A stretch of 64,000 nt of DNA, from NCBI GenBank assembly GCA_947482665.1, contig CANKJK010000002.1:248001-312000 (forward strand). Direction: 5' to 3'. A program made the translations under genes and the position numbers. Of this stretch, positions 18,711-63,388 are shown piece after piece. This DNA comes from Acidobacteriota bacterium (GTDB lineage Bacteria; Acidobacteriota; Vicinamibacteria; Vicinamibacterales; UBA2999). The notes beneath the pieces were generated by a model that was not told the origin of the DNA, ran no database searches, and saw nothing but the letters and a program-made list of their open reading frames with translations. How positions within the stretch are numbered: the stretch's first letter is position 1; the number at the start of each line of letters is the position of its first letter.

Positions 18711-21700
18711 TCAGCGCGGAATCCGGCTGGCAATCCGGCGCTCGATGAGCTCATAGAGGGTCGGGAGCACCATCAGGGTCAGCAGCGTCGAGGTCGCGAT
18801 CCCCCCGATCACGACGCTGGCCAGCGGACGCTGCACCTCAGACCCGGCGCCGTGCGAGATAGCCATCGGCACGAAGCCGAGCGCCGCCACCAACGCCGTC
18901 ATCATCACGGGTTTCAACCGCGTGCCGGCTCCCGCCAGCACGGCCTCCCGCAAGTGCACCCCGTCCTCGCGCAACCGGTTGACGGCCGTCACGAGCACCA
19001 CACCGTTGAGGACGGCCACGCCGAAGAGGGCGATGAAACCGACCGACGCCGAGAGGTTCAGCGTGAGTCCCCTGATCCAGAGTGCCGCGATGCCGCCCAC
19101 CAGCGCGAACGGCACATTCAGCAACACCAGCGCCGCCTGCCGGAGACGCCCGAACGTGACGAACAGCAGCAGGAAGATGATGGCCACCGAGAGCGGCACC
19201 ACCACCATCAGCCGATTCATCGCCCGTGACTGGTTCTCGAACTGGCCGCCCCACGCGAGCCGGTATCCGGGTGGCAGCGTCACGCGCTGCTCGATGAGCG
19301 GACGGGCCTCGGCCACGAAGCCGCCGACGTCCCGCCCGCGCACGTTGGTCTGCACGACGATGCGTCGCTCGGCGTTCTCGTGGTTGATGGCCTCCGGGGC
19401 CCGTGCCTCCGATATGCGGGCCACACGGGAGAGCGGGACCCGCTCCCCCTGGAGACCGACCAGCGGCAGGGCGCCGAGCGCCGTCGCATCGCGCCGCATC
19501 GCTTCGGGAAACCGCACGAGTACCGGGAAGCGGCGAGCGCCCTCGAGCAGCTCTGATGCCTGGCGACCGCCCACGGCGGTTTCCACCAGAGCGCCGATGT
19601 CGGCCACGCTGACACCCACGCGGGCCGCCGCAGCGCGATCCACATCCACCTGCAACTGGGCCGCGCCAAAGAGCGCCTCGAGTTGCAGGTCCGAGGCGCC
19701 GCGGACGTGCTCCAGCTCGTCGCGCACGGCCAGGCCGAGCCGCTCCAGTTCCGCGGAGTCCGGACCAAAGATCTTCACGGCCACATCCGCCTTCACGCCC
19801 GAGATGGTCTCGTCGAGGCGCATCGCCATCGGTTGGGTGAAGTTGAAGGTCATGCCTGGCACCTGGCCGAGGGTACCCGCCATCTGGTCGATAAGGGCGG
19901 CCTTGTCACGGCCCGTCGTCCAGGTGTTCGCGGGGTGGAGCGAGACGTAGATGTCCGCCTGGTAGATGCCCATGGCCTCGGTCGCCAGATCGGGCCGTCC
20001 GATCTTGGTCACCACGCCGGACACCTCGGGAAACGCCCGCAACAGTTTCTCCACGCGTCCCGACATCGCCAGAGATTCGTCGAGCGACACGGACGGGAGC
20101 TTCCGCGACTCGATGAGCAGCGACCCCTCGTCGAGCCGCGGCATGAACTCCGTGCCGAGAAACGGCAGTGACCCGAGCGCCAGCGCCACGGCCACCAGGG
20201 CGATCACCATCGTGCGGCCCGGGAAGTCCATCGCCCGCCGGAGGTCGTGGATGTAGCGGCCGCGCAACCGGAGGAACCACCCCTGCTCGTGGTGACCGCC
20301 GCCCGACGAGGGCAGGAACGAGGCCATGACCGGCACAACGGTCAGCGACAGCAGCAGCGATCCGAGGATGGCGGAGCACACCGTGATCGCCATCGGGCGG
20401 AACATCTTTCCCTCCAGCCCTTCGAGCGTGAAGATGGGCAGATACACGGCGATGATGATCAGCACGCCGAAGAGCACCGGGCGCGCCACCTCTGTCGCCG
20501 CCGCGGTCACCGTCTCGAGATACGTCTGTCGCGGGTGCGGCTCCCCCTCCGCGTGATGGACGCCGGCCCGGCGCCGGATCACGCTCTCCATCATCACGAC
20601 CGCACCATCGACGATGAGACCGAAGTCGATGGCGCCGAGCGACATCAGGTTGGACGACACGCCGAAGAGACGCATCCCGATGAAGCCGGTCAGCATCGCC
20701 ACCGGAATGACGGCGGCTACGATCAGCGAGGCGCGCAGGTCGCGCAGGAAGAAGACCAGCACCGCGATGACCAGGAGGGAGCCTTCAAGGAGGCTGTTGC
20801 GGACCGTCGTCGACGTGCGGGCGATGACTTCCGTCTGGTCGTAGAACGGCACCATCCGGAGGCGCCCGGGGAGCGTCCCGATAATCTCCGCCATCTTCTG
20901 CTTGACCCGCTCGCCGACGTCGCGGCCGTTCTCCCCCTTCAGCATGATCACCATGCCGGCCACGGATTCGCCCACGCCGTCGTGGGAGACGGCCCCCTGC
21001 CGCGGCATGGCGCCAATGCCGACCTCCGCCACGTCGCGAATCAGGACGGGCACGCCGTTGTGCTCGTGGACGACGATCTGCCGCAGGTCCTCTTCGTCCT
21101 TCACCAGGCCGTTGCCCCGGACGGTGTAGCGCTCCTGCCGGTGTTCGATGAAGCCGCCGGAGAACGGGAGGTTATTGGCCGCGACCGCGTCGAAGACCTG
21201 ACGGAGCGACACGCCGTAGCGGTCGAGGCGGGCCGGATCCACCACGACCTGATACTGCCGCGTCAGGCCGCCCCACCCGTTGATCTCGCCGACGCCGCGC
21301 ACCGCGCGGAGCTGCGTGCGCAGCTCCCAGTCATGGATGGTCTTGCGCGTCATCAGATCCGACGTGTCGCTCTCGACCAGGTACTGATAGATCTCGCCGA
21401 ACGCAGTCGCCACCGGACCCAGGACCGGCGCGACGCCGTCGGGCAACCGGTTGCGCGCCTCGGAGACCCGCTCCGTCACCAGTTGCCGGGCCAGATAGAC
21501 CGGCACCGCGTCGGCGAAGACGACCGTGACCAGTGACAACCCGGCCTTGGACACGGAGCGCACCTGCTCCGCATTCGGGACGCCCATCAACGCCGTCTCG
21601 ATCGGATAGGAGACGCGCTGCTCGACCTCCACGGCGGCCAGACCGGGTGCCTCGGCCACCACGGTCACCTGGTTGTTGGTGAGATCCGGAAACGCCTCGA

Positions 21701-21812
21701 CAGGCAGATCGCGATACGCGAAGAGGCCCGTGCCGATCAGGGCGACCAGGCACAGCAGGACGAACAGCCGCTGTCGGAGGCTCGCCGCGACCACCCGTTC
21801 GATGACGCCCAC
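18711..21812 (-). CDS. Heavy-metal efflux RND pump, CzcA-like
   Basis: The inner-membrane RND transporter has about 1033 residues. The motif DFGLIVDGAVVMMES in transmembrane helix 4 matches the Asp/Asp/Glu pattern of the CzcA (HME1) group that exports Co, Zn and Cd. CusA-type copper pumps have a different pattern. The start is GTG 21812, with GGAGGG at 7 bases, directly after the TGA of the adaptor gene; the open frame to 21863 is discounted. It forms a tripartite pump with the two proteins encoded upstream. Confidence 0.94.
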   Translation of the reverse strand: MGVIERVVAASLRQRLFVLLCLVALIGTGLFAYRDLPVEAFPDLTNNQVTVVAEAPGLAAVEVEQRVSYPIETALMGVPNAEQVRSVSKAGLSLVTVVFADAVPVYLARQLVTERVSEARNRLPDGVAPVLGPVATAFGEIYQYLVESDTSDLMTRKTIHDWELRTQLRAVRGVGEINGWGGLTRQYQVVVDPARLDRYGVSLRQVFDAVAANNLPFSGGFIEHRQERYTVRGNGLVKDEEDLRQIVVHEHNGVPVLIRDVAEVGIGAMPRQGAVSHDGVGESVAGMVIMLKGENGRDVGERVKQKMAEIIGTLPGRLRMVPFYDQTEVIARTSTTVRNSLLEGSLLVIAVLVFFLRDLRASLIVAAVIPVAMLTGFIGMRLFGVSSNLMSLGAIDFGLIVDGAVVMMESVIRRRAGVHHAEGEPHPRQTYLETVTAAATEVARPVLFGVLIIIAVYLPIFTLEGLEGKMFRPMAITVCSAILGSLLLSLTVVPVMASFLPSSGGGHHEQGWFLRLRGRYIHDLRRAMDFPGRTMVIALVAVALALGSLPFLGTEFMPRLDEGSLLIESRKLPSVSLDESLAMSGRVEKLLRAFPEVSGVVTKIGRPDLATEAMGIYQADIYVSLHPANTWTTGRDKAALIDQMAGTLGQVPGMTFNFTQPMAMRLDETISGVKADVAVKIFGPDSAELERLGLAVRDELEHVRGASDLQLEALFGAAQLQVDVDRAAAARVGVSVADIGALVETAVGGRQASELLEGARRFPVLVRFPEAMRRDATALGALPLVGLQGERVPLSRVARISEARAPEAINHENAERRIVVQTNVRGRDVGGFVAEARPLIEQRVTLPPGYRLAWGGQFENQSRAMNRLMVVVPLSVAIIFLLLFVTFGRLRQAALVLLNVPFALVGGIAALWIRGLTLNLSASVGFIALFGVAVLNGVVLVTAVNRLREDGVHLREAVLAGAGTRLKPVMMTALVAALGFVPMAISHGAGSEVQRPLASVVIGGIATSTLLTLMVLPTLYELIERRIASRIPR

Positions 21813-56405: not shown

Positions 56406-58244
<1,839 letters not shown>

Positions 58245-58323: not shown

Positions 58324-58548
58324 ATGCCACTCTTCGAATACGCCTGTAAAACGTGCGATCACCAGTTCGAGGTCCTGGTGCGTGGCTCCGAGCAGCCGGC
58401 CTGCCCGGCCTGCGCCGGCCACGACCTGCAGAAGCGTCTCTCTGTGTTTGCGGCCCAGACCAAGAGCGCCGCGCCGAGGATGAGCGCACCGGGCCCCTGC
58501 GGCTCCTGCGGGGATCCCCGCGGCCCCGGCGCCTGCTCGATGAACTAG
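58324..58548 (+). CDS. FmdB-family zinc ribbon protein
   Basis: The 74-residue protein begins MPLFEYACKTCDHQFE, the hallmark of FmdB zinc ribbons, with the two CxxC knuckles at Cys8/Cys11 and Cys27/Cys30. The C-terminal tail is Gly/Pro/Cys-rich (GPCGSCGDPRG). FmdB proteins are proposed regulators; the target is unknown. It diverges from typA. Confidence 0.93.
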   Translation: MPLFEYACKTCDHQFEVLVRGSEQPACPACAGHDLQKRLSVFAAQTKSAAPRMSAPGPCGSCGDPRGPGACSMN

Positions 58549-58573: not shown

Positions 58574-59011
58574 CTACTTCGCGCAGCAGCCCTTCTTCTC
58601 GCCGGGCTTCCCGGCGACCTTCTTTTCAGCCGCACCACCGTGGTCCGCGTGCGGGTTGTTCGTGGCCGCCTTGTGCTGCGCGTGGGGGTCTTCGGCTCCC
58701 GCGTCGGCGGCCGGGCCCAGCTTGATCCCATTGGCGGTGAGCGGCGTCTTGCCCGCGCCGACATCCAGCACCACGCGCTGCCCCACGGCAAGGTCGGCGA
58801 GTGTCGCCGCGGCGGTGCCACGCGTGACGATGGTCTTCGCAGTCGTCAGCACCGTTTCGAGCTTGCCATCCGTCGTCTTGACCTCCACCTGGCCCGCGGC
58901 CACTTTCGTGACGGTGCCCCGGACGGTGTGCGTGTGCCCTTCATGGGCCAAGACAGGATAGGAAAGCCCCAGACACAGGGCGGCGGCAGCGAGCGTACGT
59001 GAGCGAATCAT
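58574..59011 (-). CDS. Periplasmic His-rich protein, OB-like domain
   Basis: The 145-residue protein has a signal peptide ending near VLA-HEGHTH, then a domain of about 80 residues with repeated VRGTVTKVAAGQVEVKTTDGK-type strands, as in DUF5666-like OB folds. A Lys/His tail ends in CCAK. The HEGHTH start and HAQHK/HADHGG suggest metal binding, probably copper. Its start overlaps the cytochrome gene by 4 bases (ATGA); it is the last gene of a three-gene operon. Confidence 0.78.
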   Translation of the reverse strand: MIRSRTLAAAALCLGLSYPVLAHEGHTHTVRGTVTKVAAGQVEVKTTDGKLETVLTTAKTIVTRGTAAATLADLAVGQRVVLDVGAGKTPLTANGIKLGPAADAGAEDPHAQHKAATNNPHADHGGAAEKKVAGKPGEKKGCCAK

Positions 59012-59583
59012 GGCTGTCCTCCTTCAAGGAACCGTTCATCATCGAGTTCGCGGCGAATCTCCGCTGGTGGCCGTGGCATCTGACTGCGGACGTCCTGCAC
59101 GTCGGAGGGCGACCAGCGCGGCATCGTCCGAATCAGGCGCACGAGCGCCCAGCTCGCCGCTTCACCATCAGGAGTCGCGGTGGTGAACGCCGGCATCCCC
59201 GTAAAGCGCACGCCCCGCTCGATCGCGTGAAAGAGTGCACCATCACTCTGGCGCTGGGTCGGCGCCGCCCGCAGATCCGGCGGACGGGGCGAGAGCCCTC
59301 GGCCGATGGGTGTCTCGCCGCTGCCGTCGGCCCCATGGCACGTCGCGCAGTGGTCAGCGTAGTGCGCCCGCGCCTCGCGCATGCGCTCCCGAGATTCGGC
59401 CACGGGGTTGGTGCGGGCCGCGACTTCCGGAGGCGTCGCATAGCCGCGCAGCCACCCCATCAGGCGGACTTCGATGAATCCCGGAGCCTCTACCGCGTCC
59501 AGGCTCGTGGTCCGCACGATGTTCACGGCTGCTGCCACCATCAGCACCACGCCGAGGACCACGCCAAGCGCGAGGCGAATCAC
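59008..59583 (-). CDS. c-type cytochrome, single heme, membrane-anchored
   Basis: The protein has 191 residues from GTG 59583. An N-terminal membrane helix (ALGVVLGVVLMVAAAVNIV) is followed by a class I cytochrome with CATCHGADGSGE and a distal Met in RFTGMPAF. GTG 59583 overlaps the stop of the His-rich barrel gene by 4 bases (GTGA). It passes electrons in the periplasm; the partner may be the neighbouring proteins. Confidence 0.88.
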   Translation of the reverse strand: MIRLALGVVLGVVLMVAAAVNIVRTTSLDAVEAPGFIEVRLMGWLRGYATPPEVAARTNPVAESRERMREARAHYADHCATCHGADGSGETPIGRGLSPRPPDLRAAPTQRQSDGALFHAIERGVRFTGMPAFTTATPDGEAASWALVRLIRTMPRWSPSDVQDVRSQMPRPPAEIRRELDDERFLEGGQP

Positions 59584-61082
59584 CGCATCACCGCCGGGCG
59601 GATGGTCACGAACACGCCACTGCCGTAGGTCACGCGTCCACCATACCGCGGACCCAGCAACGCATTGGCCAGTGCCGCCGACACCGTAAAGCCCACGCCC
59701 GGTTGCCAGCCCCGCCACGGTGAGGCATGGCGGACGTAGCCACCCTGGAGCTTGCCCATGCCTTGCGGCTCCGTGAGACCGTGGATGCTGACGTCATGTG
59801 GGGACTTGGTCCCCAGTTCGGCACGGCCGAACCAGGTGTCGTGCGGGCTGCGCGCCACGGAAGTTTCCATGAGCAGGAACTGCGTAGCGGGGCGGCGCGT
59901 CTCGACAGCGCGACCCCACGCGACCGTCGATGCCCACTGCGCCTCCGTCCCCGCCAGCCGCCTGTTGTAACTCACCGAGGCGGTCGTCAGATTCTTGTCC
60001 ACGGTGGTCAGGTCCTCGTGTGCCGGTTCGGCGTCCTTCAGATGCCCGGCCGAGACCTGCACGGCCCACGCGGGAGACGGCATCCACCACACACGGCCCG
60101 AGTAGGAGTCCAGCGGTGCCAGGTCGAAGTTGTGTCGGTTCTCGTCGGGCTCCCGCCCGTTGAACACGGAGGCCTCCGCCTTCCAGCGAGCCGTGAAGAC
60201 TCCGGCCGTCGCCACGCCGTAGGTGATGTGCGTGGCGTCGAGCCAGTGGTGGGAGATCGGCGCCATCGGATTGATCGTTGACGACGCGCGATGCGGAAAC
60301 GCTGCCGGGCCAAGCGCCGGCTCACCGGCGGGTCCACCGTAGACCTGCACGAACAGTCCGGGACGAAGGGGTCGCGTATAGGACGCGGCCAGCTCCATCA
60401 CCGCATCGTGCGGATGCTGCTTCTCGTGAATCGGCTCGCCGCCGCACAGTTCACCCGTGGCGAACATGTCGGGATACCCGCAGCCGCGAATCGTCCAGGG
60501 CTCGGCGCTCCCCATGCCGTTCAGCGTGAGCCAGCCCGCGCCGACTTTCCGCTGCGCCATTGCCATGCCCCAGTTGATGCTGCCCGCTTGCGTGCCGCCA
60601 AAGAAGCCGCCTTCGTGGAAGACCTGCCCGAAGGCCTGTCCCATCAGCATCACCGTCCACGCACCAGCCTTGGGTGACACGCCTCGCATCGGGGTGGTGT
60701 CCGGCACCCAACTGGTGCCTGACGCCAACCGGTTCATCGGCACACCGCCAGGGCCGGTCATCGTGTGCGCCGACATGTCGTGACCGGCCATGTGACCCAT
60801 GTCGTGCCCCGCGTGCGGGTCCGGGGCGTGTCCGGCATGAGGATCGGATGGCTGAGGAGCCGGCGCGTCAGGGGCTGGCGCCTCCGGAGCAGGTGCTTCC
60901 GACGCAGGCACTGCCGGGGTCGGGTGTTGATGGCCGGCGTGGGGGTCCGGTGTCTGGGCATCCGCGTACGCCGTCAGGCTCAGCACGAGGCCAGCCGTCA
61001 CCAGGGCACGCCAGGGCACGAGTGAACGGAGATGGGGCACAGGCATCAGCCCTCTGTGCAACGTCACTGGGGCCTGTGCCAT
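59580..61082 (-). CDS. His-rich outer-membrane beta-barrel protein
   Basis: The 500-residue protein has a signal peptide, a low-complexity His/Pro/Asp region (about residues 45-105; repeated HAGH, HDMGHM) and a long beta-rich C-terminal part of barrel-like strands ending in VFVTIRP. The His-rich stretch can bind copper or another soft metal. I recognise no exact family. ATG 61082 opens the frame; ATG 61046 is an alternative. It is the first of a three-gene operon with a cytochrome and a small His-rich protein, which together may handle a metal or its oxidation (inference). Confidence 0.78.
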   Translation of the reverse strand: MAQAPVTLHRGLMPVPHLRSLVPWRALVTAGLVLSLTAYADAQTPDPHAGHQHPTPAVPASEAPAPEAPAPDAPAPQPSDPHAGHAPDPHAGHDMGHMAGHDMSAHTMTGPGGVPMNRLASGTSWVPDTTPMRGVSPKAGAWTVMLMGQAFGQVFHEGGFFGGTQAGSINWGMAMAQRKVGAGWLTLNGMGSAEPWTIRGCGYPDMFATGELCGGEPIHEKQHPHDAVMELAASYTRPLRPGLFVQVYGGPAGEPALGPAAFPHRASSTINPMAPISHHWLDATHITYGVATAGVFTARWKAEASVFNGREPDENRHNFDLAPLDSYSGRVWWMPSPAWAVQVSAGHLKDAEPAHEDLTTVDKNLTTASVSYNRRLAGTEAQWASTVAWGRAVETRRPATQFLLMETSVARSPHDTWFGRAELGTKSPHDVSIHGLTEPQGMGKLQGGYVRHASPWRGWQPGVGFTVSAALANALLGPRYGGRVTYGSGVFVTIRPAVMR

Positions 61083-61097
61083 CTGACGCGGAGCGAC

Positions 61098-62792
61098 CTA
61101 GAGCCCCGCGACGCTGACGAAGCGCGGCTCGATATCCACCGGCACGTCGTTCAGGCGGTCGAGCACGGCTTTCACCTGCGGCCGGATGACGCCCTGTGTG
61201 TCGATGAGCGCCCGGGCCGCGGCGTAGTCGCCCTTCGCCTGCATCGTCATCAGGTCGCGCGTCAGGTCGGCCACGTTCTGCTTGATGCGCGAGGCATCGA
61301 TGGCAAAGGTGCCGTCTGCCGCCACCGTCACGCCCCCGTGGTCGAGGAAGTAGTTGAGCTGAATCGCGATGCCGCGCCCGTGCGCCTCGTTGATGCCGAA
61401 GCGGATGGACCGGAAGCAGGAGGCCAGGAACGTCGTGTAGATCTGCGGCTCCAGCGCCTTCGGCAGCGTGCCCTTGTCGATCAGGTACTGCAGTGCCCAG
61501 AGGCCGGAGATATCCGCCTTGGCTTCTTCCGTGGCGCTGTAGGTGTCTTTGAACTCCAGCCGGACCGTCGAGGCCTTACCGCCCACCGTGATGTTGTGCG
61601 GCCCGAGGCCGTGCATCAGCTCGTGCATCAGGATGTGCGTGAAGAAGGCGTCGAACGAAACCTGCGCCTGGTCCTTCTGCGAGAGTGCCACCTTCGAGAT
61701 GGGCACCAGCACCATCTGGAATTTGGCCTGCTGGTTGTTCTTCAGCATCACCCGCTTGGAGCCTTTCTCCTTGATGACGCGCTCGTCATTCGGGAGGTTG
61801 AAGGCCGCCGTCTGCACGGCGCGGTTGCCATCGCCCCCTGAGAACACCGTGTTCAGCACGCGAATGGGCGCCATCGCTCCGAGCGACGTGTTCCGGAGGG
61901 ACGGCTCAATCGGCAGGTGGTCTTCCAGCTCCTGCAGCTCCGCGCTCAGGTGCTTCAGTTTGTCCGTCTCGGCATCATCACGGATGCCGATGAAGGCCTC
62001 AAAGGCCGCCTTGTAGCCAAACCACTCGTCTTCGTAGGTTTCGTAGGGGCCAATCGTCGGCTCGATCGAGGCCTCCAGCTCCATCCACGCCACGTCGCTC
62101 GCGTAGTAGTCGTTGCTGATGAAGGCCGCCGCGCGCTTCTCGAGGAAGGCCCTGAGCGTCGGCTGCGTGGTGAGCGCCGCCGCCTCGCGCAGCAGCGCCG
62201 CCGCCTGCCCCAGCTCGCCCTGATACTCCTGGCTGTAGGGCACCGAGAGGAACTTGCCGTCCGGCCCGCGACGGATCGTCGTGAAGTAGCTCGTGGCCGC
62301 CTCGTGCTGCGCCGGGGGCAGCGACTTGATCCACGCCTCCACCTCGGCCTTCGTGGCGCCAGCCGGATAGAAGTTGCCTTCGTCGAGGCGCTTGCCCACG
62401 CCCGGAACGAACGCCTCGAAGTGGTCGAGCCGAGACCACGGCCCCTTGTTGATCAGAAAGTAGTGCAGGCGTGCCTTGCCTTCGGGCGATTCGTCCTGCA
62501 GGAGCGAGAGGAGGAGCGATTCGTTCCCCGCCCAGGCCTGACGCAGGAAGAGCGCGTCCATCAAGCGAGCCGCCGCCACAATCTTGCCGAGCGCCTTCCG
62601 TTCGTTCTCCGGAAGGGCCTGCACATCGGCCACGAGGTCGACAGGGGCGAAGCGCGCCGCCATCTGGGTGAGGCGCGTGGCCTCGGCGGATGGCGCGGGG
62701 GTCTTAGGAACCGTGGAGGACGGGCCCGAGGAGGGCGCCGAGCAGGACATCGTGAACATGGCAAGCACCGTGAGCAGAATGGCCGAACGCAT
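61098..62792 (-). CDS. M49-family (dipeptidyl peptidase III-like) lipoprotein
   Basis: The lipoprotein of about 564 residues has a lipobox (FTMSC) and the zinc motif HELMH followed by EEAKAD, the bacterial counterpart of the M49 HExxxH and EECRAD motifs. DPP III cleaves dipeptides from the N terminus of oligopeptides. Here the zinc spacing is HExxH, one residue shorter than in classical DPP III, so peptidase type and activity need proof. ATG 62792 has AGAGGT at 5 bases; the open frame to 62888 overlaps yqgE. Confidence 0.86.
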   Translation of the reverse strand: MRSAILLTVLAMFTMSCSAPSSGPSSTVPKTPAPSAEATRLTQMAARFAPVDLVADVQALPENERKALGKIVAAARLMDALFLRQAWAGNESLLLSLLQDESPEGKARLHYFLINKGPWSRLDHFEAFVPGVGKRLDEGNFYPAGATKAEVEAWIKSLPPAQHEAATSYFTTIRRGPDGKFLSVPYSQEYQGELGQAAALLREAAALTTQPTLRAFLEKRAAAFISNDYYASDVAWMELEASIEPTIGPYETYEDEWFGYKAAFEAFIGIRDDAETDKLKHLSAELQELEDHLPIEPSLRNTSLGAMAPIRVLNTVFSGGDGNRAVQTAAFNLPNDERVIKEKGSKRVMLKNNQQAKFQMVLVPISKVALSQKDQAQVSFDAFFTHILMHELMHGLGPHNITVGGKASTVRLEFKDTYSATEEAKADISGLWALQYLIDKGTLPKALEPQIYTTFLASCFRSIRFGINEAHGRGIAIQLNYFLDHGGVTVAADGTFAIDASRIKQNVADLTRDLMTMQAKGDYAAARALIDTQGVIRPQVKAVLDRLNDVPVDIEPRFVSVAGL

Positions 62793-62818
62793 GGCGACCT
62801 CTGAAGGAACGGACGTGC

Positions 62819-63388
62819 TCAGTGCACGCCCGAGCTTTGCTGGAACGATGACGGCGCCGCGCCGATGCGGCTCAGCGCCGTTTCCCACATCTGATCGGAC
62901 GGCACACCGAAGATGAGCTGTGGATCAACCGGCAGCGTCAGCCAGCCCGACTCCGTCAGCTCCTTTTCCAGTTGCCCCGCGCCCCAGCCGGCGTAGCCCG
63001 CGATCACGCGGACCTTGCTCGTCGGCGGCGCCTGCAGCAGTTGCAACGTGAGCGACTGCGAGGCCGAGAGCAGCACGCCGGGGCAGATCTCCCGCTGGTC
63101 TTCCTCCGGCCCCTGCGGCTCCGACATCAGCACCCACGTGCGCTGCTGATCCACCGGACCCCCGATCCACAGATGCACCGTCGGGTCCACATGCACCGGC
63201 GTTTCCGGCTTCACGAGCGACCAGGCCGGTTCCGTCATCTGGCGATTGACCACCAGACCGAACGCGCCATCCGAGGTGTAGTCGCAGAGCAGGACGACCG
63301 TCTTCGCGAAGTTCGGGTCGTTCATCTGCGGCATGGACACGAGCATGAGCGGGGCCGCCGAGGGCGTGTCCGGGGTTTCCGAGTTCAT
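62819..63388 (-). CDS. YqgE/AlgH family protein
   Basis: The 189-residue protein has the typical N-terminal PLMLVSMPQMNDPNFAKTVVLLCDYTSDGAFGLVVNR and, later, VRVIAGYAGWGAGQLEKEL, a full match to YqgE. The family is conserved and has no established activity. Its start overlaps the queG stop by 4 bases (ATGA), so it follows queG in the operon. Confidence 0.94.
   Translation of the reverse strand: MNSETPDTPSAAPLMLVSMPQMNDPNFAKTVVLLCDYTSDGAFGLVVNRQMTEPAWSLVKPETPVHVDPTVHLWIGGPVDQQRTWVLMSEPQGPEEDQREICPGVLLSASQSLTLQLLQAPPTSKVRVIAGYAGWGAGQLEKELTESGWLTLPVDPQLIFGVPSDQMWETALSRIGAAPSSFQQSSGVH

Follow-up and report, generated by a model that had tools for sequence, protein, structure and literature searches.

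The 64,000-nucleotide stretch of DNA analyzed here (the window; positions 248,001 to 312,000 of contig CANKJK010000002.1, assembly GCA_947482665.1, from an Acidobacteriota bacterium of the order Vicinamibacterales) carries a three-gene operon that encodes, in order of transcription, a porin-type outer-membrane barrel, a monoheme cytochrome c, and a small secreted protein with a predicted OB fold (the OB protein). This operon is probably an outer-membrane module for copper tolerance/export, in which the cytochrome would oxidize Cu(I) and Cu(II) would exit via the porin. The link of the porin family to copper is well supported, and the tolerance role is well supported by inference; metal oxidation by the set is put forward as a hypothesis. 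The strongest evidence for a copper-handling set is a series of gene fusions in relatives.

The three genes are read from the minus strand (61082→58574), and both junctions are overlaps of exactly 4 bases, GTGA at 59580-59583 between the porin and cytochrome genes and ATGA at 59008-59011 between the cytochrome and OB genes. An earlier note on this DNA, made from its letters alone, had described such a coupled trio, with HAGH/HDMGH repeats and a barrel in the first protein, HEGHTH at the mature start and a CC tail in the last, and a cytochrome between these two His-rich proteins; all of these descriptions proved accurate (Table 1 and below). Gene calls were made with simple open-reading-frame scripts, without an annotation program.

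Fusions of the porin and the cytochrome in relatives

The fused cytochrome-porin of a Blastocatellia genome (locus L129; L-numbers are labels of compared loci from other genomes) served as the query for a search of 396 genomes of the phylum, 89 of which matched; 25 loci from this search were read, together with 8 further stretches. A single open reading frame that joins the cytochrome, a His-rich linker, and the porin is present in L129 and in two of the 25 loci (L222 and L223), and the L222 fusion sits in a neighborhood of CusA-CusC-CusB and copper-ATPase genes (L249). The porin is preceded by other modules in two more cases, each found at 1 of the 25 loci: in L242 by CusF_Ec (PF11604, E 2.4e-9, above cut-off), with cytochrome and OB genes coming next, and in L243 by an OB/DUF5666-like domain and a His-rich linker (family-profile E 3e-16, with Pfam DUF5666 below its cut-off). 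HMBD was detected by motif ahead of the porin at 7 of the 111 porin loci compared in the next section, and Pfam confirmed it in all 6 porins submitted (four of the seven motif cases plus L104 and L109), while a YHS domain lies behind the porin in L039. Cupredoxin-like N-termini with a C-x4-H-x4-M pattern occur in L118 (8332-10263, plus strand) and L126 (3822-5840, plus strand), both below Pfam cut-offs, and no Pfam domain was found in the long N-termini of six porins (L224, L227, L229, L233, L236, and L244). This set of fusions indicates that modules for carrying copper or electrons have been joined to the porin repeatedly.

The cytochrome is also found, again with a His-rich linker, fused to a TolC-type outer-membrane protein of the OEP family (PF02321, E 2e-38 and 4e-34) in L247 (6256-8340, plus strand) and L248 (5243-7465, minus strand), the L247 fusion carrying HMBD too. 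As judged by sequence comparison, one cytochrome is thus fused to two unrelated outer-membrane proteins, the porin and the TolC-type OEP. Both TolC-type fusions adjoin multicopper-oxidase matches, and that of L247 adjoins a copper ATPase as well. Unfused cytochrome genes lie next to CusA in L251 and between multicopper oxidases in L252; no further copper gene is present in the stretch read for L250.

Copper-type genes around the porin

The 111 porin loci comprise the window, 3 plasmids, 32 stretches from related genomes, and 75 of 80 loci from a genome collection, the other 5 having been left out as duplicates. As controls, 40 stretches of like size were picked blindly from the same related genomes, and from related genomes only. 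A copper-type gene other than the porin is present at 57 of the 111 porin loci versus 4 of the 40 controls (P = 2e-6; P values here ignore relatedness), in a comparison for which most copper search seeds were taken from the porin loci themselves and a CPMH motif was chosen after the loci had been read. Porin open reading frames, three of which carry the CPMH motif themselves, were not counted in this tally, and omission of the eight seed-giving loci leaves 49 of 103. The P1B-ATPase motif, for which no locus sequence was used, occurs at 33 of 111 porin loci versus 0 of 40 controls and at 9 of the 32 related-genome loci (P = 3e-4); at 11 of the 111 loci, a P1B-type ATPase is encoded at most 1.5 kb upstream, on the same strand as the porin.

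In close relatives, the gene order is copper ATPase, small Cys/His protein, porin, cytochrome, and OB protein, followed further on by TypA in L038 and L039. The window retains the porin-cytochrome-OB order plus the TypA and FmdB neighbors, and no copper ATPase lies beside its trio. A relative of the porin on a Pontibacter plasmid adjoins a copper ATPase and a four-helix copper protein. Genes for DUF305, MerR, and a heavy-metal ATPase are within reach of one Sphingobium relative, and the other has DUF305 and MerR, with no heavy-metal ATPase found in the stretch seen. The earlier note had suggested a periplasmic/outer-membrane oxidation or tolerance set for a metal, with copper as a question mark; the frequent copper-type context, together with the fusions of the porin to CusF, HMBD, YHS, and cytochrome in relatives, speaks in favor of a tolerance set.

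These same data bear on whether the substrate could be another soft or transition metal (silver, zinc, or cobalt), or metals in general. HMBD, His-rich tails, and pumps of the CzcA/CusA type are not specific for copper, but CusF, copper-type P1B ATPases, multicopper oxidases, and cupredoxin-like fusions indicate copper or silver, and we regard a different or a general metal substrate as quite unlikely. For the source genome, we infer that copper is the substrate and that it moves outward.

Recurrence of the trio and evidence against a copper role

Conserved clustering, for which the earlier note had proposed a survey of neighbors, is kept in other genomes. Among 149 genomes of the order, the porin is matched in 63 (and in 31 of 59 close genomes), the cytochrome family in 60 (E 1e-20), and the OB family in 54 (E 1e-8). 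The cytochrome gene directly follows the porin gene on the same strand at 12 places, the OB gene directly follows the cytochrome gene in 36 cases in 35 genomes, and all three are adjacent on one strand in 10 genomes, the source genome included. The 12 porin-cytochrome adjacencies and the 10 trios argue that the arrangement is not due to chance. Porin and cytochrome co-occur in 38 genomes (Fisher P = 2.5e-6, with genomes treated as independent), and the trio is also present in another family of the phylum (L242). At 19 loci that have the cytochrome-OB pair and no adjacent porin, 7 hold copper-type genes (P = 0.02, same controls as above), namely matches to a copper ATPase, CusA, or a multicopper oxidase.

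Several observations weigh against a role of the trio in copper export. No copper-type gene is within reach at 54 of the 111 porin loci, the window's own among them. In the source genome, CopA is encoded on another contig with no copper neighbors recognized by eye, and one multicopper oxidase gene also lies elsewhere, on another contig. The cytochrome is next door at 12 of the 77 porin places used, which means that the porin does not need it everywhere, and 2 of 4 further phylum loci with an unfused cytochrome show no copper-type gene in the stretches read (L253 and L254). The cytochrome domain resembles ordinary electron carriers, and its best relative in the PDB is the monoheme subunit of quinol:cytochrome c oxidoreductase. 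Finally, the copper site of CusF uses Met and Trp residues; the mature OB protein of the window holds neither and therefore cannot use that site.

The points on the cytochrome would be accounted for if it were merely a respiratory electron carrier, co-transcribed by chance, with the copper work left to the porin and the OB protein. A generic domain that is not next door at most porin places would fit such a role, but the fusion of this cytochrome to two unrelated outer-membrane proteins and its repeated adjacency to the OB gene speak for a closer connection, and we find a chance companion rather unlikely.

A porin family with near-invariant His motifs

An AlphaFold2 model of the porin, computed with 69 sequences, is confident (predicted local distance difference test score, pLDDT, 91.4; predicted template modeling score, pTM, 0.90) and predicts a porin-type outer-membrane barrel with 18 strand segments. 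Its best structural match is OprO (Z 23.5, root mean square deviation 3.5 over 303 residues), and OmpF (Z 22.7) and Omp32 (Foldseek E 2e-9) are matched as well. These general and specific porins (OprO/OprP, OmpF, and Omp32) have the same fold as the model, but identity is ~10%, and the window's family differs from them in its near-invariant His/Asp/Glu motifs and its metal-binding tails. The N-terminal stretch is rich in His and Met (10 and 4, respectively, in residues 43-112), with DPHAGH at residues 46, 80, and 88 and HDMGH starting at residue 93; in the modeled part, residues 93-105 almost all have pLDDT values below 50.

Neither Pfam nor NCBIfam gave a meaningful match for the window porin. 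When all 69 members were compared with Pfam, weak and scattered barrel matches were obtained at most (BBP2 in 5/69 and Porin_4 in 2/69); a profile search against solved structures gave no match, and phmmer returned weak matches alone (E 0.42 or worse). The earlier note had called the set one that it did not recognize, and this fits the lack of a Pfam or NCBIfam model for the porin; among the titles listed in searches of the open-licence literature, none describes the porin family or a copper cytochrome-porin. A scan of a genome collection confirmed at least 557 porin relatives among at least 594 stretches, and the 80 kept for analysis span Acidobacteriota, Gemmatimonadota, Verrucomicrobiota, Bacteroidota, myxobacteria, Alphaproteobacteria, and others. 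One copy is present in the source genome. A family of this kind, without an existing model, deserves its own name.

Residues E211, Q222, H225, H264, R265, H278, H279, D282, and H285 are identical in all 69 members, and the near-invariant motifs of the family are QHPHD, HR, and HHWxDxTH. His accounts for 6 of the 43 near-invariant positions versus 19 of 408 (P = 0.009), 3 of the 6 falling in a search pattern. Since porin loci were found with patterns through the H278-H285 motif or SxFNGREPD, H278-H285 are conserved in the 69-row alignment partly as a result of how its members were selected; in 19 relatives chosen without patterns, Q222, H225, H264, H278, H279, D282, and H285 are all invariant. 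Such residues could bind copper inside the pore.

A small protein that looks secreted, has a CxxxC...CH...C pattern, and mostly ends in LRI is encoded immediately upstream of the porin at L035, L038, L039, L040, L042, L045, L051, L053, L065, L126, and L129, in some loci between the copper ATPase and the porin. It is missing in the window, and the two examples checked had no Pfam match; it is possibly a further copper-binding part. Near the porin of the Bacteroidota locus L119 (5411-8110, plus strand) lies a protein that by eye resembles a TonB-dependent receptor with an HMA-like domain, and a seed from it was matched at 8 of the 111 porin loci.

The cytochrome and the OB-fold protein

The cytochrome scores 39.9 bits against PF13442 (cut-off 27) and has a single CxxCH motif, preceded by a predicted hydrophobic N-terminal anchor. 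C79, C82, H83, and M130, the distal Met, are invariant in 13 of 13 cytochrome sequences. Three plasmid relatives that were viewed have no clear copper context.

In the OB protein, H23 is invariant and H26 and H28 nearly so among 13 sequences, and the His/CC tail is absent from the 12 aligned relatives. A model computed with 5 sequences alone (pLDDT 68 overall, near 87 in the core) predicts an OB fold. Its four best VIA matches are CusF structures, with Z scores of 9.0-9.5 that lie within one unit of the next OB folds (Z 8.6); in Foldseek, apo-CusF ranks second (E 3e-3), with translation factors alongside. PF11604 (CusF_Ec) is not matched by the window protein at E up to 1, nor by any of the 13 family members at E up to 0.1. 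DUF5666 (PF18914) is scored at 17.9 bits by the window protein against a cut-off of 27 and is matched by 6 of the 13 members at E up to 0.1. The OB protein and CusF share a small OB fold and His at the mature N-terminus, but the former has neither the profile match nor the Met/Trp of the copper site and is not CusF on either count. Its metal ligands are likely the N-terminal His residues and, in this genome, the His/CC tail.

Table 1. Genes and motifs of the operon, in window coordinates
Feature	Position	Strand	Remarks
Outer-membrane porin-type barrel (predicted), copper-linked family without a name	59580..61082	-	500 aa, ATG start; signal-like N-terminus and His-rich stretch
His/Met-rich, probably disordered N-terminal stretch of the porin	60753..60956	-	Residues 43-110; three DPHAGH repeats
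QHPHD motif of the porin	60405..60419	-	Residues 222-226; each residue in at least 68 of 69 relatives
HR...HHWLDATH segment of the porin	60228..60293	-	Residues 264-285; within the longest inter-strand stretch of the model
Membrane-anchored monoheme cytochrome c (PF13442)	59008..59583	-	191 aa, GTG start; anchor judged from sequence
Heme-binding CATCH of the cytochrome	59335..59349	-	Residues 79-83
Secreted small OB-fold protein, DUF5666-like, nearest solved folds CusF	58574..59011	-	145 aa, ATG start
HEGHTH at the mature N-terminus of the OB protein	58928..58945	-	Residues 23-28, after a signal-like N-terminus
CC of the C-terminal tail of the OB protein	58583..58588	-	Protein ends GCCAK

Comparison with known systems

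We propose by analogy that the trio works like PcoA–PcoB, with the cytochrome in place of the multicopper oxidase PcoA. According to PMC12509749, efflux by PcoB of Caulobacter depends on its disordered, His-rich N-terminus with HAGH motifs, the pcoA and pcoB genes share a four-base overlap, and PcoA is a periplasmic Cu oxidase. The trio shares with PcoA-PcoB/CopA-CopB a copper context and a barrel whose His/Met-rich, disordered N-terminus carries HAGH, and it shares with PcoA-PcoB the four-base overlap between the gene for the barrel and that for its periplasmic redox partner. PcoB, however, belongs to PF05275 and has a barrel of 12 strands (PMC9210255), whereas the window porin is modeled with 18 strand segments, and PcoA is a multicopper oxidase, whereas the partner in the window is a heme cytochrome. 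PF05275 is matched by none of the 69 porin members at E up to 0.1 and by nothing in the whole source genome. With no such match and a different strand count, assignment of the porin to PcoB/CopB is ruled out; PcoB is also not among the 50 fold matches listed for the porin model, a listing that excludes nothing.

PcoB has also been reported to facilitate copper uptake (PMC9210255). By the same token, the window porin might import copper, with the cytochrome and the OB protein readying it for cuproenzymes such as cytochrome oxidase; in Ensifer, a cytochrome-oxidase cluster adjoins one distant relative of the cytochrome. The copper neighbors, however, are mostly genes of efflux and detoxification (copper ATPase, CusCBA, and multicopper oxidase), and the cytochrome also occurs in fusions with TolC-type exit proteins. 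We therefore favor export, and think it unlikely that the porin serves uptake.

The fused relatives show the layout of Cyc2 (PMC8406198), an N-terminal monoheme cytochrome followed by a porin; the motif of Cyc2 is P-x-FAR[QK][TY] before CxxCH. A monoheme cytochrome and a porin-type barrel are common to both, in a single open reading frame in L129, L222, and L223, and a corresponding function would be to gain energy by withdrawing electrons from a metal ion outside the cell, for example Fe(II). The genes of the window are separate, though, the fusions of its relatives have a long His-rich linker, and the context is copper, not iron, wherever it can be named. The Cyc2 motif is absent in L129 and in all 111 porin open reading frames. 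The porin-cytochrome pair is ruled out as Cyc2, being unfused in the window and without the motif, and a Cyc2-like oxidation of metal for energy seems to us highly improbable. TolC/CusC-type OEPs, to which the same cytochrome domain is fused in L247 and L248, are of another family (PF02321) and are not part of the window's operon.

Genomic surroundings of the operon

Upstream of the porin on the same strand, a gene for an M49-type peptidase with a lipoprotein-like start (61098-62888, minus strand) ends 15 nucleotides away, and the trio may hence be part of a longer transcription unit. An M49-like gene is also found near the cytochrome-OB pair in L199. No sigma-70-like site was found in a promoter scan, and terminator-like sites number 4 versus 2.1 expected, those on the minus strand all lying inside genes. 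The other neighbors of the operon are genes for an FmdB-type zinc-ribbon protein (58324-58548, plus strand) and a TypA-like GTPase (56406-58244, minus strand). Genes of one or the other type recur near cytochrome-OB genes in L038, L039, L040, L198, and L201, which suggests that the place of the operon on the chromosome is inherited. Two CusA/CzcA pumps of the source genome score above cut-off; a CusA/CzcA-type pump of the resistance-nodulation-division (RND) class (TIGR00914, above cut-off) is encoded in the window at 18732-21803 (minus strand), ~38 kb from the operon.

Discussion

In the mechanism that we envisage, the OB protein, CusF-like in fold, would gather periplasmic copper, and the His/Met-rich N-terminus of the porin would take the copper from it. 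The membrane-anchored cytochrome c, positioned beside this hand-over, would accept an electron from Cu(I) at its heme and pass it to the respiratory chain, while Cu(II) would exit via the porin, whose loops would guide the ion with their conserved His/Asp/Glu residues. The porin-type barrel would thus stand in for PcoB and the heme cytochrome for PcoA, with a CusF-like carrier added. What sequences and models establish for this scheme is the coupling of the genes, the porin-type fold, the conservation of the family, the frequency of copper-type neighbors, and the fusions of its components in relatives.

To our knowledge, little is understood of how copper crosses the outer membrane other than by RND pumps, and this applies even to PcoB. 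A broader and more tentative idea, which we consider doubtful as it stands, is that Acidobacteriota have a heme-dependent form of copper export, in which a cytochrome c docked on or fused to exit channels oxidizes Cu(I) at the exit and feeds the electrons into respiration. Such a system would take the place of multicopper oxidases, which depend on oxygen, or work alongside them, and in many phyla the porin family would represent a major copper channel so far undescribed. If this is true, a cytochrome tied to copper exit proteins would amount to Cu(I) detoxification without a multicopper oxidase. The porin family itself, with at least as many relatives as counted above and its near-invariant His motifs, has no model in Pfam or NCBIfam, and the function of the porin is directly open to tests through the fusions to CusF, HMBD, YHS, and cytochrome c.

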